Source of the DNA: Oscillospiraceae bacterium
Lineage (GTDB): Bacteria; Bacillota; Clostridia; UBA1381; UBA9506
Reading direction: 5' to 3'
Length of the DNA: 64,000 nt
Assembly (NCBI GenBank): GCA_015068905.1
Contig: SVJQ01000006.1
Location: 1-64,000 of the forward strand
In this document: one piece after another, positions 2,116 to 9,529 of the stretch
Layout of the letters: the number at the start of each line of letters is the position of its first letter
How positions within the stretch are numbered: position 1 is the stretch's first letter
The notes under the pieces: model-generated
What the model was told of the DNA's origin: nothing
Databases searched by the model: none
What the model saw: only the letters and a program-made list of their open reading frames with translations
Translations under genes and position numbers: made by a program

Positions 2116-3605
<1,490 letters not shown>

Positions 3606-3609
<4 letters not shown>

Positions 3610-4133
3610 TTGCTGATCACTTCCTTTATATCACCGAGACGACGCAGAAGACTTGCGTCTATCTGTTTGCCGTCTGTTTCAATAATCATACCGCCTAACA
3701 CAGCCTTATCAACAGTCAGGCAAATGTTAACAGGATGACCAAATTTTGCTTCCAGTTTCTTTTTCAGTTCAGCTTCTTGCTTGTCAGTTAAGGGGACTGC
3801 ACAAGTTACGTTGGCAGTTAGAACCTGACTCGCTTCTTCCATAAGGCGGCTGAATTCATCAATGGCATCAAGCAAATAGCGAATATATGAGCGCTCACAC
3901 AGAAGCTTTAAAAAAGAAACAGCATAAGGGTGCAGCTCACCAAAGGCCTTATCAATCAGGCTAAGGCGTTCTTCAAGCAGAATCGCCGGTGAGGCAAGCA
4001 GGTCAAGATAACCTTCATTCTCTACAGCAGCATCTTTTATAAACATAAGTGACTCTGACACCAATGAACAGCAATCTTCTTCACTGGCAAGCATAAAAAG
4101 TGCCGCTGCATACTCTTTACTCATATCAGTCAT
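3606..4133 (-). CDS. atpH: F1F0 ATP synthase delta subunit
   Basis: Peripheral-stalk subunit linking the top of F1 to subunit b. It is about 175 residues from the ATG at 4133, which begins [15 protein letters not shown] and ATG codons at 4142 and 4139 are alternative starts, but the AGGTGATG ribosome site inside the end of atpF best fits 4133. The C-terminal OSCP/delta signature ([25 protein letters not shown]) is present. It overlaps atpF by a few bases and atpA by 4. Confidence 0.93.
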
Positions 4134-4632
4134 GGTCATCACCTATCTGCTCAATCACAGAATCAATCAGATTTTTGTGGTCATCCATATTGATTTCTCT
4201 CTCTAACAGTTTTTCGGTTAGTACAGCTGAAACATTTACAATCTCTTGTTTAATGTCATCTGTTGCCTGTTTGCGATACAAATCAGCGGCTGTTTCGGCC
4301 TGGCGGATAATACCGTCTGCCTTCTCCTTTGCCTCTTCAATCATTTTCTCACTGCGCCAGCTGGCGGTATCTGTCGCTTTTTGGATGATTGCTTCTGCCT
4401 CATGATCTGCGCCGTCCAATTTCTCTTTCCATTCCTGCTCACTCAAAAGAGCCTTCTCTTTTGCGTTATCTGCATCAGAATAAAGCTTGTCCAGCGCAGA
4501 CTGTCTCTCTGCTAGCATTTTTTGAACAGGCTTATACAAAAATTTTTTGATAAGTAAAAACAAAATAATGAGATTTGCGATTGAAATTAAAATCTGCCAC
4601 AAGTTGACAGAGATTATAGCTAATGATTGCAT
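4126..4632 (-). CDS. atpF: F1F0 ATP synthase subunit b
   Basis: Peripheral stalk subunit of 168 residues. One N-terminal membrane helix (residues ~8-28) is followed by a long charged amphipathic helix (Lys/Glu/Ala-rich, about 35-150) that dimerises and reaches delta. It carries the short basic segment after the membrane helix (KKFLYKPVQKML) typical of b. The gene lies between the c-subunit gene and delta, the standard position. Confidence 0.95.
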   Translation of the reverse strand: MQSLAIISVNLWQILISIANLIILFLLIKKFLYKPVQKMLAERQSALDKLYSDADNAKEKALLSEQEWKEKLDGADHEAEAIIQKATDTASWRSEKMIEEAKEKADGIIRQAETAADLYRKQATDDIKQEIVNVSAVLTEKLLEREINMDDHKNLIDSVIEQIGDDHD

Positions 4633-4665
4633 GCTTGTTCACTCCAAGAATAGTCTTAAATCGGC

Positions 4666-5840
<1,175 letters not shown>

Positions 5841-5851
<11 letters not shown>

Positions 5852-6245
5852 TCCGATGAGCCGCCTCCTTTGCTTTTAACTGAAAAGCCTTAACAAAAAT
5901 CCCAATTCTGGAGAAAAACAGTGGAAGAATTACAGCTATTGCTGAAAAGCATGGTAACAATACGCCAACCGCAACAAGCACAAACAAGATAAATGTACGC
6001 AGCGTCTGAGACAATTTGATGATTTTTTTTGCCTCTTCTGGCTCTTTTAAAACAGCCTTTTGCACAAAAAGACCCATGCAAAAAAAATTTAAAACCGAGA
6101 TGGCACCACCCCATAAATTTCCCAGCAGCACAGTATAATCCCATTTATGCATAAAAAGAAAAACCGCTTGCATTAAAACGCTCAGAAGCAAGGTCAAGAC
6201 AGCAACATAAGTTGTTTCTTTAGCTACAACTTTCTCGACTTTCAC
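5841..6245 (-). CDS. atpI: AtpI-like ATP synthase assembly protein
   Basis: First gene of the ATP synthase operon. It is a small four-helix membrane protein (134 residues) of the AtpI / ATP synthase subunit I type, a family implicated in c-ring assembly and Mg2+ handling. I chose the GTG at 6243-6245 because an AAGGAG site lies just upstream; the longer frame from a TTG at 6272 would bury that site. Family assignment rests on position, size and helix pattern, as sequence is poorly conserved in this family. Confidence 0.8.
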
Positions 6246-6336
6246 TATAAACAGCTCCTTTACATAATGCAAAACGATTTTGACATTAATTTACGCAAAA
6301 AACATTTTTATATTCTTAGCATTTAATATAATGGAT

Positions 6337-6365
6337 ATTTTACCACAAATTGTAGTTTACGTCAA
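6337..6365 (-). promoter_or_regulatory. Sigma-A promoter of the atp operon
   Basis: On the minus strand, TTGACG (6360-6365), a 17-bp spacer and TAAAAT (6337-6342). The predicted transcript has a leader of about 85 nt before atpI. It is divergent from the plus-strand promoter at 6432. Confidence 0.7.
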
Positions 6366-6431
6366 TAATTTTTAAATAAATTGTGTAGATATAGTATTTT
6401 ATTTAAAAAAATTTCTTTTTTTATACAAATA

Positions 6432-6460
6432 TTGACATATAGTGACATTGATGGTATAAT
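6432..6460 (+). promoter_or_regulatory. Consensus sigma-A promoter of first zinc-ribbon gene
   Basis: TTGACA (6432-6437), 17-bp spacer, TATAAT (6455-6460): a perfect match to both hexamers. A GGAGG ribosome site follows at 6479-6483, before the ATG at 6491. Confidence 0.88.
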
Positions 6461-6490
6461 TAAAAAAATGTAAAAAACGGAGGATTAATT

Positions 6491-6868
6491 ATGATTTGTC
6501 AAAATTGTGGTAATGAACTTCCTGAGGGTTCAAACATTTGCCTGAACTGTGGTTTTGAAACCGTAGCGCCCGCACCCGTTCAGGAAAAAGCAGCAGATGT
6601 CCCTGGTAAAACCTTGGGTCTTGTATCTATGATTTTAGGTATTGTTTCTATTGCATGTTGTAATCTGCTTGGATTAGTTTCTATCGCTGGTTTAATTACC
6701 GGTATTCTTTCAAGCAAGCAAGCAAAAGCAGCTGGTCTGAAGAACAATCAGTCTCTCGCCGGTATCATCTGCTCTATTATTGGACTTGTTTTATTTATTG
6801 TAGGTGTTATTTTCTGCATCATTTATTTCATCGGTATGGGCGTTGCAAGTTCCTCATACTATTATTAA
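6491..6868 (+). CDS. Zinc-ribbon membrane protein with DUF4190-like domain, paralogue 1
   Basis: 125 residues. The N-terminal zinc ribbon has Cys3, Cys6, Cys17 and Cys20 (CxxC-x10-CxxC). A short Ala/Pro linker follows, then two hydrophobic hairpins (about 40-72 and 85-118) resembling DUF4190 proteins, with a basic KQAKAAG segment between them. The protein ends in Ser-Ser-Ser-Tyr-Tyr-Tyr. It shares this plan with the genes at 7373 and 7932. Molecular function is unknown; the ribbon may mediate protein contacts at the membrane. DUF2752 follows 4 bp downstream, probably in one transcript. Confidence 0.85.
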   Translation: MICQNCGNELPEGSNICLNCGFETVAPAPVQEKAADVPGKTLGLVSMILGIVSIACCNLLGLVSIAGLITGILSSKQAKAAGLKNNQSLAGIICSIIGLVLFIVGVIFCIIYFIGMGVASSSYYY

Positions 6869-6872
6869 TATT

Positions 6873-7295
6873 ATGAAGTATATACAAAATAAACGCTTGT
6901 TAGTTATTTTGTTTGATGCATTGATCGTAGCCGTAGGTTTTTGTATAAAGCCTATGGCTATCTTCATGTTTCAAACCGGAATTTCACAATGTTCTTATTA
7001 CAAAAACGGGATTATTTGTCCGGGGTGCGGCGGCACAAGATGCGTTTATAACTTTTTCTCCGGCAATTTGTATCAATCATTTGTATTTCACCCCTTTGTC
7101 TTTTGTATGATATGGTACTGTTTTTTAGTTATTCTGCTTTTAAACTTAGAATTTATTTTTAAAAGCAAAATAGCAAAAAGAATTCGTCGTTTTCTTCTTG
7201 ATTATCGAACTATCATCGTGCTTTTTATCTGCTTTGTTATATTTGGGTTGTCCAGGAATTTTATCCCTTTTATTAATCCATTTCCTAAACTTTAA
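6873..7295 (+). CDS. DUF2752 membrane protein
   Basis: 140 residues from the ATG at 6873, which follows the stop of the preceding gene by 4 bp. The family signature CPGCGGTR (Cys-x-x-Cys-Gly-x-Thr-Arg) lies near residue 50. It is followed by Asn-Phe-Phe and an aliphatic membrane helix starting at FHPF, as in DUF2752. Three membrane helices are predicted. DUF2752 genes commonly accompany zinc-ribbon/DUF4190 genes in Bacillota, but no activity is established. No strong ribosome site is visible, so translation probably relies on coupling to the upstream gene. Confidence 0.82.
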   Translation: MKYIQNKRLLVILFDALIVAVGFCIKPMAIFMFQTGISQCSYYKNGIICPGCGGTRCVYNFFSGNLYQSFVFHPFVFCMIWYCFLVILLLNLEFIFKSKIAKRIRRFLLDYRTIIVLFICFVIFGLSRNFIPFINPFPKL

Positions 7296-7308
7296 AATTC
7301 TAAACTAG

Positions 7309-7337
7309 TTGACAAAATGCAACAAAAATGTTAGAAT
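7309..7337 (+). promoter_or_regulatory. Sigma-A promoter of second zinc-ribbon gene
   Basis: TTGACA (7309-7314), 17-bp spacer, TAGAAT (7332-7337). GGAGG at 7360-7364 precedes the ATG at 7373. Confidence 0.82.
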
Positions 7338-7372
7338 ATATCTAACTTATTTTTATATTGGAGGGTTTTATT

Positions 7373-7786
7373 ATGGTTTGTCAAAATTGTGGTAGCGAAA
7401 TTCCTGAAGGTGCTTGCGCTTGCGTAAACTGCGGTACTTTAGTTCAGGAGACAGTTGTAACACCGGCCAACGAAAAACCTGCAGCTGCTCCCGGTCAAAT
7501 TATGGGAATTGTATCCTTGGTATTAGGTATTCTTTCTATATTGTCCGGATGTTGCTGTTCTTTTATTATCGGTTTCTTTTCACTTATAGCTGTTATTCCA
7601 TTTGCAATTGCAGGGGTGATAACCGGTGTTATTGCATTAAAACAGGCTAAAGAAGCCAACACAAAGAATGTTATGGCTATTGTGGGTATTGTCTGCTCAG
7701 CTCTCGGTATCCTTTCAGGTTTAGTTTATGCTATCCTCTTTGTTGGTATTTTAGGTTTAGGCGCAGCAACTGCTTATACTTATTGA
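7373..7786 (+). CDS. Zinc-ribbon membrane protein with DUF4190-like domain, paralogue 2
   Basis: 137 residues. The zinc ribbon uses Cys3, Cys6, Cys17 and Cys20, then comes a Pro/Ala linker, two hydrophobic blocks (about 42-90 and 100-130) and an aromatic end (Ala-Tyr-Thr-Tyr). The ATG at 7373 has GGAGG upstream; an in-frame TTG at 7358 overlaps that site and is not the start. It is a close paralogue of the genes at 6491 and 7932 but has an unusual Gly-Cys-Cys-Cys run in the first membrane block. Function unknown. Confidence 0.85.
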   Translation: MVCQNCGSEIPEGACACVNCGTLVQETVVTPANEKPAAAPGQIMGIVSLVLGILSILSGCCCSFIIGFFSLIAVIPFAIAGVITGVIALKQAKEANTKNVMAIVGIVCSALGILSGLVYAILFVGILGLGAATAYTY

Positions 7787-7802
7787 TTTAGTTGTATTTT
7801 GC

Positions 7803-7839
7803 AAAAAAGCCACAGGTATAAAAACCTGTGGCTTTTTTT
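7803..7839 (+). terminator. Intrinsic terminator after zinc-ribbon paralogue 2
   Basis: Stem GCCACAGGT / ACCTGTGGC with a short A-rich loop and a T7 run. Confidence 0.9.
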
Positions 7840-7865
7840 GCAAACTCTAGACAGTAACATAGCGC

Positions 7866-7894
7866 TTGACAAAAAATGCCATAAATGCTATAAT
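7866..7894 (+). promoter_or_regulatory. Consensus sigma-A promoter of third zinc-ribbon gene
   Basis: TTGACA (7866-7871), 17-bp spacer, TATAAT (7889-7894), both hexamers perfect. Confidence 0.88.
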
Positions 7895-7931
7895 AAAAAA
7901 ATCAAGATTAGTTTTTCAGGGGGATAATACT

Positions 7932-8324
7932 ATGTTTTGTCCAAACTGTGGTAAGGAAATCTTAGATAATGCATACGTTTGTGTACACTGTGGTGTCAAA
8001 ACGCCCGGGGTTATAACGGTTCGTGCAAAAGAACCTGTTGTTCCCGGTAAAGGTTTAGGCATTTTCTCGATGATTATGGGGATTCTTTCCATCGCGTGTT
8101 GTTCCGGTTTTGGTACTTTTCCGATTGTCGGCTTGATTACCGGTATTGTGGCAAAAAGCAAAGCGAAAGCTGCAGGTATGGAAAACTCTTATGCCACTGC
8201 CGGAATTATTTGTTCTTCCGTGACGATTGCACTTGCGCTTTTAGGCTTAATCTTTTATATTGTATATATAATTTTCGTACTTGTCTTAGGTGTCGGTGCG
8301 GCAAGCACCTCATACTATTACTGA
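7932..8324 (+). CDS. Zinc-ribbon membrane protein with DUF4190-like domain, paralogue 3
   Basis: 130 residues from the ATG at 7932, which has an AGGGGGAT ribosome site; a longer frame from 7866 would start inside the promoter. Cys3, Cys6, Cys17 and Cys20 form the ribbon. A linker, two hydrophobic blocks split by a KSKAKAAG basic segment, and a Ser-Thr-Ser-Tyr-Tyr-Tyr end follow. It is closer to paralogue 1 than to paralogue 2. Function unknown. Confidence 0.85.
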   Translation: MFCPNCGKEILDNAYVCVHCGVKTPGVITVRAKEPVVPGKGLGIFSMIMGILSIACCSGFGTFPIVGLITGIVAKSKAKAAGMENSYATAGIICSSVTIALALLGLIFYIVYIIFVLVLGVGAASTSYYY

Positions 8325-8345
8325 TAATAGTCGCAAAATAGCGTT

Positions 8346-8377
8346 AAAAAAAGGCTGCGTATGCAGCCTTTTTTTAT
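8346..8377. terminator. Bidirectional terminator between convergent genes
   Basis: Stem AAGGCTGC / GCAGCCTT flanked by an A-run and a T-run. It can serve the plus-strand zinc-ribbon gene and the minus-strand lipoprotein gene ending at 8386. Confidence 0.88.
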
Positions 8378-8385
8378 TTCTTATC

Positions 8386-9060
8386 TTAGTCAACCCATGA
8401 AAAATAACTTAAAATATTATTTAAACCTGCCTCAGAGTCAGATGTTACAGATACACTTGCCAGATATCCGTTACATTTGATAGAAAAACTGCACTGATGC
8501 ATTTTGATGTTTTCAAAATCTGCCGTGATATACATCGCATCGAGCGTCCTACCTGCAACAGTCGCTTTTTTAATTTCGTATCCAACGCCTGTAAAGCCCA
8601 TATTTTCAAAGCTGGATTCGATTGTAGAGAAAAGCGTTTCGTAGTTACTTGCGATATCCAGCGCTGCAAGCTGAGCTGCATCAACTTTCTCAAAATTAAT
8701 GTTTACATTGTTCATCGTTGCATCTTCAGCTACAAACATATCATAAATAACCTGAGCCTCTTTCATAAGCTCTTCATAATCTTCTCCTGCCATTTCTGCT
8801 GTAGCCTGATTCATTTCTTTAATTTTAGCTTCGTCTGCATAGGTCCATCCGGCGGGTGCTGTGAAGCGGATACCGGCAAATTCATTGGTATAGATGCTTC
8901 CCTCTACAGTGCCTAAAGAAAAAGTTTTTTCGATGGCAGGCGTCTCACTTCCCCCTGAGGGCGCAACTTCGACGTCATTTGCAACATCAGCAAGCATTCC
9001 ACAAGCGCTAAATGACAAAGTTAATACTGCCACCATAAGTAATGTAATTAGTTTTTTCAT
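8386..9060 (-). CDS. Putative lipoprotein, unknown function
   Basis: 224 residues from the ATG at 9058-9060, preceded by GGAGGAG; an upstream in-frame ATG at 9075 overlaps that site. The signal peptide (residues 1-20) ends in a lipobox Phe-Ser-Ala-Cys at Cys21, so membrane anchoring on the outside is expected. The mature part is soluble with no catalytic motif I recognise. It has a segment SLGTVEGSIYTNEFAGIRFTAP-like in style to secreted DUF-type proteins that begin with a beta-rich entry strand. It is the last gene before a shared terminator. Function not assigned. Confidence 0.78.
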   Translation of the reverse strand: MKKLITLLMVAVLTLSFSACGMLADVANDVEVAPSGGSETPAIEKTFSLGTVEGSIYTNEFAGIRFTAPAGWTYADEAKIKEMNQATAEMAGEDYEELMKEAQVIYDMFVAEDATMNNVNINFEKVDAAQLAALDIASNYETLFSTIESSFENMGFTGVGYEIKKATVAGRTLDAMYITADFENIKMHQCSFSIKCNGYLASVSVTSDSEAGLNNILSYFSWVD

Positions 9061-9079
9061 AAAAATCTCCTCCATTTAC

Positions 9080-9529
9080 TTATAAAATTTCATGACTGTC
9101 CAAAAGAATGGTAAAGGGACCGTCGTTAACTAAAGAAACCTTCATATCGGCCCCGAAAATGCCGCATTCTGTTTTTTTAAACAGTTCCCCGCATCTTTTC
9201 TTGATGTGCTCATATAATTCTTCTGCAAGGGCTGGATTGCCGGCATTTGTAAAACTAGGTCGGTTGCCCTTTCTGCAGTCAGCATACAGGGTGAACTGAG
9301 AAACCACCAACACTTCTCCTTCAACCTGACCGATGCTCAGATTTGTTTTGCCGTTTTCGTCCTCAAATATCCGTAAGCGGCTTACCTTTTCAATCATTTT
9401 ATCAGCAATTTCATAGGTGTCTTCGTTAGAAACGCCGACAAAAATCAGATAGCCCTTACCAATCTGACCGACAACAGCACCCTCTACCTCAACCTTTGCC
9501 TCTAAAACACGTTGTAAAACCAGTTTCAT
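9080..9529 (-). CDS. dtd: D-aminoacyl-tRNA deacylase
   Basis: Hydrolyses D-aminoacyl-tRNA (for example D-Tyr-tRNA), protecting translation from D-amino acids. It is 149 residues, the normal length. The active-site motif [12 protein letters not shown] (about 78-89) and the C-terminal NxGPFT motif (Asn-Asp-Gly-Pro-Phe-Thr) are intact. An AAAGGATATGAG ribosome site precedes the ATG. It lies 27 bp downstream of the family 3 glycosidase gene and probably shares its transcript. Confidence 0.96.

Follow-up and report, generated by a model that had tools for sequence, protein, structure and literature searches.

The window analysed here, a stretch of 64,000 nucleotides, corresponds to contig C28 (SVJQ01000006.1) of an Oscillospiraceae bacterium whose genome (G000) is 1.73 Mb in size and 87% complete; the relatives of this genome that carry names are mostly Clostridia metagenome-assembled genomes. 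Between the ATP synthase operon and a presumed dtd gene, the window contains four genes on the plus strand: three paralogues, termed A, B and C, each encoding a zinc ribbon and a DUF4190 hairpin, and a DUF2752 gene located after gene A (Table 1). A GGAGG or GGGGG stretch can be read in the sequence upstream of each ATG, and an Rfam scan of positions 5500-9500 yielded no matches.

Table 1. Features of the DUF4190-DUF2752 locus and its surroundings (window positions).
Feature	Positions	Strand	Description	Basis
Lineage-specific segment	6301..9085		2785 bp; sister genome G007 has ~170 bp between the same flanks	
Promoter of gene A	6432..6460	+	TTGACA-17-TATAAT, TG before -10; 12/12 matches	
Gene A	6491..6868	+	125 amino acids (aa); zinc ribbon, CD225-like DUF4190 hairpin with a cysteine pair (CC), long transmembrane (TM) helix, tail SSSYYY	Pfam, alignment
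DUF2752	6873..7295	+	140 aa; about 3 TM; C-x8-CPGCGGTR	PF10825 E 8e-10
Promoter of gene B	7309..7337	+	TTGACA-17-TAGAAT, TG before -10; 11/12 matches	
Gene B	7373..7786	+	137 aa; zinc ribbon, DUF4190 with CCC, tail AYTY	Pfam, alignment
Terminator-like hairpin after gene B	7800..7842	+	-25.9 kcal/mol, z -7.5; absent from consensus-scan list	
Promoter of gene C	7866..7894	+	TTGACA-17-TATAAT, TG before -10; 12/12 matches	
Gene C	7932..8324	+	130 aa; zinc ribbon, DUF4190 with CC, tail STSYYY	Pfam, AlphaFold2
Terminator-like hairpin after gene C	8345..8376	+	Opposite strand listed too	Consensus scan, folding
Lipoprotein-like gene	8386..9075	-	229 aa; inside the lineage-specific segment; at most a candidate module member	

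A sequence-only reading of this DNA had placed three zinc-ribbon/DUF4190 paralogues here, with one cysteine spacing and tyrosine-rich C-termini, and these points were borne out. All three open reading frames (ORFs) match DUF4190 over nearly the whole Pfam model (E 3.9e-7, 3e-7 and 1.2e-8 for A, B and C), cysteines 3, 6, 17 and 20 are common to them in the alignment (the gene B product has an extra Cys 15), and the tyrosine-rich ends are present as listed in Table 1. In bits (30.1, 30.5 and 35.0) A and B lie below the curated cut-off of 35 and C just reaches it; in the genome-wide search the gene C product scored 36.6 bits, above the cut-off. Zn_Ribbon_1 passes its cut-off in A (E 9e-7) and C and does not in B. 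The hairpin cysteines align as IACC in A and C and as GCCC in B.

The DUF2752 product scored 39 bits against the PF10825 cut-off of 27, the match spanning model positions 8-48 of 49, and 41.6 bits in the search of relatives, which is low among them; the CPxCGxTR motif and the hydrophobic passes are present. A DUF2752 gene with its own CxxC had been described, and both gene and CxxC are there, but the conserved set is larger, since Cys 40, 49 and 52 are all family-invariant (60/60). The accompanying proposal that DUF2752 is a separate insert did not hold: its ATG lies 4 nt past the gene A stop, it has no signals of its own, and it is a member of the gene A operon. An inserted stranger is ruled out because G017 and L007 (Oscillospiraceae SIG451) have a DUF4190-DUF2752 pair with the same gene order; at L007 the DUF2752 copy adjoining a zinc-ribbon DUF4190 gene is 55% identical to that of the window over 130 aa. 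A PDB sequence search with DUF2752 gave no matches.

The association of DUF2752 with small membrane proteins extends well beyond the window. DUF2752 was present in 56 of 121 genomes, our own included, and the neighbours of 60 of the 62 matches were read (those left out being G057 and the sub-threshold G048). Among 77 neighbour proteins, Pfam identified TM2 in 15, DUF4234 in 12, CpXC in 10, DUF4190 in 8 and Zn_Ribbon_1 in 20, and named a CD225 neighbour at L149, whose genome is from the same family as the window. A partner gene lay within 350 nt in 51 of the 60 cases (TM2 16, DUF4234 12, DUF4190 12, CpXC 10, CD225 1), as counted by profiles, with a motif for CpXC, and including the partners at L311, L191 and L193 that had been missed by greedy ORF choice; of the nine DUF2752 genes without a listed partner, two are at contig ends (L167, L321) and one (L147) has another ribbon-hairpin gene. 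At L251, in a genome (G168) from another family of the class, three ribbon-DUF4190 genes surround DUF2752 with overlapping starts and stops (2367-4385, minus strand) and end in GGYYGYY, SGSFSQF and GSYYF. Across the class, DUF4190 was found in 54 of 291 genomes at E ≤0.001, with 22 above the curated cut-off, and DUF2752 was seen at 19 of 80 fetched DUF4190 loci (18 distinct, as some places, such as L200 and L246, had been fetched twice). The multi-part complex suggested by the sequence-only reading is thus supported as a conserved gene module, by the 51 partnered cases and the same anatomy at L251, while a physical complex of the products is something that we infer. No paper naming DUF4190 or DUF2752 was found among 5.39 million open papers, a search in which the control DUF1127 was found and which leaves most subscription papers and all bioRxiv preprints outside, so that an earlier report is possible.

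Two further settings of DUF2752 were seen. Ten genomes that belong to a single family of the order (loci L158, L162, L171, L303, L306, L307, L309, L312, L313 and L315; family f4) have a DUF2752 gene that either overlaps with the beginning of a CpXC gene or lies almost against it. A second DUF2752 pairs with DUF4234 at L176 (contig C10 of G000, 3492-4217) and at L181 (G008, 4470-5330); near both pairs lies a gene whose product has a SpoIVA-like start.

The feature that follows DUF2752 most closely among DUF4190 proteins, and one absent from the sequence-only reading, is the hairpin dicysteine. At one column of the hairpin a cysteine was found in 20 of 24 DUF2752-linked proteins and in 9 of 72 unlinked ones (p 3e-10; genes close to where a fetched stretch stops were left out when no DUF2752 was in view), or in 18/22 and 8/71, respectively, without the window proteins. 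This was the strongest of 279 residue-column tests, the next being 1.8e-4, and after reduction at 60, 50 and 40% identity the p values were 1e-6, 7e-5 and 3e-4. Within the hairpin half, a literal CC was present in 20 of 34 proteins from DUF2752 loci versus 4 of 83 elsewhere (p 5e-10), with the window left out and L191, which is in a DUF2752 locus, placed on the linked side; reduction at 60, 50 and 40% gave 13/26 vs 4/65, 10/20 vs 3/52 (p 6e-5) and 8/14 vs 1/32 (p 7e-6 to 9e-5 over the three). Alternative counts were 16/27 vs 3/65 with a hand-made linked list and 22/36 vs 5/84 with the window included. About four in ten of the linked DUF4190 proteins lack a literal CC. The same trend was observed for cysteines in CD225 (11/11 vs 2/5, these two, both within DUF2752 loci, being the second copies of a tandem), DUF4234 (27/31 vs 5/22) and TM2 (22/29 vs 3/16).

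A comparison of profiles points to a relationship between DUF4190 and CD225, the dispanin family (PF04505) that holds the IFITMs, PRRT2 and bacterial IFITMs. In hhalign, the DUF4190 alignment (123 rows) matched that of CD225 (17 rows, including L332, a fragment below the cut-off) with a probability of 86% and a score of 29.3 over 52 columns; TM2, DUF4234 and DUF2752 as controls gave at most 0.5%, and the best score of 20 column-shuffled copies was 9.7. By BLASTP the gene C product is 33% identical over 135 columns, with CC on CC and part of the match contributed by the ribbon, to the CD225 protein of L009 (Dysgonomonadaceae, Bacteroidota; PF04505 E 1.2e-21). PF04505 itself matched none of A, B and C at E ≤1 and nothing in the G000 genome. 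Pfam membership in CD225 does not extend to the window proteins, and DUF4190 and CD225 are probably remote relatives at the superfamily level. Members of CD225 share with the window proteins a hairpin with CC, a charged loop, a further long helix and a short tail, and several bacterial ones have the same zinc ribbon (two in tandem at L295) and lie beside DUF2752, whereas the DUF4190 hairpin differs in being glycine-rich and of another length. All three window proteins match DUF4190 (PF13828), only C at the curated cut-off, a family in which CC is rare outside DUF2752 loci, as the counts above show. A third family, the CCC motif membrane protein (NF040945), resembles the window proteins in its weak matches to A (E 4e-4) and C (E 3e-3) and in the literal CCC of B, yet the scores (A 20.7, B 12.5 and C 17.8 bits, with B at E 0.15) are far from its cut-off of 65.

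Searches of 196, 148 and 398 genomes gave bacterial CD225 genes above cut-off in 6, 3 and 4 of them, respectively (6/398 at E ≤0.001). They adjoin DUF2752 in 10 of 13 genomes and 12 of 15 genes, two being second tandem copies; as G372 had been picked as a centre since its CD225-DUF2752 pair was known, the genome count without it is 9/12. Two of their tails read YEYYYYNFQ (L296) and DYNYYYDYY (L297). The exceptions are L298, L299 and L300. At L298 and L299 the CD225 genes also lack CC, and each adjoins a small gene with a cysteine-rich, C_GCAxxG-like start.

Work on IFITM proteins offers a possible guide to function. IFITM3 is described as oligomerising via GxxxG and raising membrane order, its oligomers stiffening membranes (PMC7665892), and both IFITM3 and two mycobacterial IFITMs as S-palmitoylated, the latter making human cells moderately resistant to influenza (PMC4488726). 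The latter paper also calls the function of bacterial IFITM relatives unstudied as of 2015.

The aromatic tail was examined in 84 non-redundant DUF4190 proteins, mostly from the class sample and with the three window proteins excluded, against 240 other mechanical ORFs that contain two or more hydrophobic segments, 97 of which have at least 250 aa. The last residue was tyrosine in 20/84 DUF4190 proteins versus 7/240 controls (Fisher 5e-8; 2/97 long controls) and aromatic in 35/84 versus 26/240 (Fisher 6e-9; 8/97 long controls), and tyrosine frequencies at positions -4 to -1 were 0.11, 0.19, 0.18 and 0.24. Because of this enrichment over control ORFs, the aromatic tail is a family tendency and not a local oddity; tail conservation among relatives, which the sequence-only reading had named as its own refuting test, is thus upheld. 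The result is limited by the 49 of 84 proteins with a non-aromatic last residue and by DUF2752 itself, whose last ten residues are as aromatic (1.88 vs 1.99), with just 1 of 41 ending in tyrosine. At least two aromatics in the last five residues were found in 13/26 DUF2752-adjacent DUF4190 proteins versus 14/58 others (p 0.024), and an aromatic last residue in 13/26 versus 22/58 (p 0.34). As markers of the link to DUF2752, the retained tail and ribbon proposed earlier serve less well than the hairpin dicysteine: the tail tracks DUF2752 weakly, and the zinc ribbon is missing from several DUF2752-linked proteins.

The AlphaFold2 model of the gene C product, built on 14 rows (predicted local distance difference test (pLDDT) 77, predicted template modelling score (pTM) 0.44), contains one hairpin of short helices (40-55 and 63-80) and a 43-residue helix (86-128), which makes the two membrane hairpins suggested before doubtful, the alignment behind the model being thin. 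For DUF2752 (6 rows, pLDDT 67) the model has long helices at 2-34, 74-96 and 111-134, with CPGCG at the start of a helix at 50-62. In the 43 of 93 DUF4190 proteins scored as three-TM, the mean net charge was +0.95 at the N-terminus, -0.14 in loop 1, +2.37 in loop 2 and -0.91 in the tail, and because of this pattern the tail is placed outside in that set. Searched against PDB sequences, the DUF4190 set had 32 matches (best E 0.0023), which included zinc ribbons as well as other proteins.

The perfectly spaced promoters of A, B and C were found as described (Table 1). Exact TTGACA-17-TATAAT occurs at 66 sites in the genome, two of them at this locus, versus none for a reversed-pattern control, and consensus sites are therefore not due to chance; the second DUF2752 of G000, after the DUF4234 gene on contig C10, likewise lies downstream of one. 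Among lead genes of such modules, 23/59 have a promoter with at least 11/12 matches versus 12/68 controls (p 0.0095), which gives a moderate hint of strong expression as a property of the module. Codon usage ranks among 57 ORFs were 6 for A, 27 for B, 46 for C and 52 for DUF2752. The independent high expression of all three paralogues that had been proposed is plausible from the promoters, but codon usage supports it for gene A only, and strong expression of each as an established fact is contradicted for B and C.

The products of A, B and C are 41-50% identical pairwise and form a group in a tree of 23 proteins (support 90/86, not starred; A with C 91/47). Recent copying, the second refuting possibility raised by the sequence-only reading, is ruled out by these identities and this grouping, and the paralogues are an expansion specific to the lineage but not recent. 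Two of the three array genes of G168 pair in the same tree (98/90), which suggests that the G168 and window triplets arose by separate expansions. In the sister genome G007, whose AtpB is 85% identical to that of the window genome, the whole segment is absent, including the lipoprotein-like gene; its flanks are 74% and 72% identical by blastn, and the segment ends in Table 1 are alignment ends, not exact junctions. The difference between G000 and G007 may reflect gain or loss, in either direction. The lipoprotein-like gene has no Pfam family over cut-off and a weak PHROG match (E 0.0015, virion structural). In the neighbouring ATP synthase operon, the c subunit (4666-4965, minus strand) has a glutamate in both helices, the second reading AIAETTG, a pattern of sodium-type c-rings; the first-helix motif is present in eight genus loci, in a comparison that covered the first helix.

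The reading that we favour, and to which we assign about half of our belief, is that the locus is a duplicated, dispanin-like bacterial membrane module of two parts, with DUF2752 either acting on the hairpin cysteines or forming one site together with them. It builds on the observed anatomy, gene linkage, dicysteine co-variation among DUF4190 proteins and aromatic-tail enrichment, and on the probable homology of DUF4190 and CD225. The DUF4190 protein would keep its ribbon in the cytoplasm, insert a short hairpin with CC at the level of the membrane and one long TM helix, and expose a short aromatic tail outside. DUF2752 would be its dedicated three-pass partner, its C...CxxC meeting the hairpin CC in or at the membrane, where the invariant cysteines could act on the pair or form with it a joint site (metal, disulfide or acyl-thiol). 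We assume the CC to lie at the S-palmitoylated position of animal IFITMs, an equivalence that comes from our own alignment. By analogy with CD225/IFITM, the hairpin proteins may oligomerise and alter local membrane order or shape, DUF2752 would set their state and so tune an oligomeric membrane-ordering protein, and the three paralogues, under their strong promoters, would provide further subunits or subunits of different kinds. The complex itself, its topology, the cysteine chemistry and the effect on the membrane are all inferred.

Several results weigh against this reading. DUF2752 also adjoins the soluble CpXC protein, which has no hairpin. The match to CD225 depends on alignment depth, an earlier hhalign run with 6 CD225 rows having given just 4%, and the GxxxG loop motif of IFITM3 is not evident in the window proteins. 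Both AlphaFold2 models are of modest quality and rest on thin alignments; in a Foldseek comparison of the gene C model with the PDB the best match was at E 0.47, its ribbon weakly resembling NZF/RanBP zinc fingers. As many as 46 of the 93 DUF4190 proteins were scored as two-TM, and the net charge of +2.5 on the cysteine loop of DUF2752 is a poor fit to an outside loop. Codon usage gives no support to high expression of B, C or DUF2752, and promoters with at least 10/12 matches were alike in module lead genes (31/59) and controls (29/68; p 0.29). Once the sets were reduced at 50%, the cysteine link was not significant in CD225 (where numbers are small), DUF4234 and TM2; in the latter two, linked and unlinked proteins are told apart about as well or better by other residues, so that ancestry may explain the trend in these three families. 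A cysteine link common to all hairpin partners was rejected, since it fades in DUF4234 and TM2 once redundancy is reduced.

Part of the same evidence could be read more simply. DUF4190 proteins may be ordinary small membrane proteins that act alone, as envelope-stress or lipid-packing factors, with DUF2752 a mere operon neighbour; we consider this possible, though clearly less probable than the two-part module. It would account for the 61 of 80 fetched class loci at which DUF4190 has no DUF2752, a count that also speaks against a dedicated partner, for the promoters that B and C have of their own, for the terminator-like hairpin between them and for the poor codon usage of DUF2752 compared with gene A. 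It accounts less well for the recurrence of the pairing with several kinds of partner, across other families of the class and as far as Bacteroidota, and for a dicysteine that follows this pairing among DUF4190 proteins.

On the chemical side, the chief alternative to modification or bridging of the hairpin cysteines by DUF2752 is a metal site. The cytosolic ribbon, the hairpin CC and the C...CxxC of DUF2752 would then bind zinc, copper or an Fe-S cluster as a metal or redox sensor or store, with no shaping of the membrane. The frequency of Zn_Ribbon_1 (20/77) and CpXC (10/77) among the neighbours, the three invariant cysteines and the co-variation of CC all agree with such a role, but acylation or packing would agree equally well with the probable homology to CD225 and with the hydrophobic surroundings of CC, and several linked proteins have no ribbon; we regard it as unlikely. 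Least probable by far is that the cluster is mobile or defence cargo. The presence of the 2785 bp segment in the window genome and its absence from G007 between the same flanks would suit cargo, yet none of its five genes is integrase- or transposase-like, their best PADLOC match is at E 0.045, and the PHROG matches of four of them are all of unknown function.

A bolder reading can be put forward, tentatively: DUF2752 may be an unrecognised bacterial partner of IFITM/dispanin-type proteins, a membrane enzyme or cofactor protein whose three invariant cysteines modify the dicysteine (e.g. by S-acylation or oxidation) or link it through a metal, with DUF4190 in the same superfamily and the module as one ancestral setting of the IFITM fold. 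IFITM proteins guard animal cells against viruses, and IFITM-like proteins are widespread in bacteria. With a partner gene that is conserved and a pair of cysteines that co-varies with it, the function of bacterial IFITM-like proteins would become a question of two genes and two residues, and the superfamily would be extended to DUF4190, with its occurrence in more than fifty genomes of the class.

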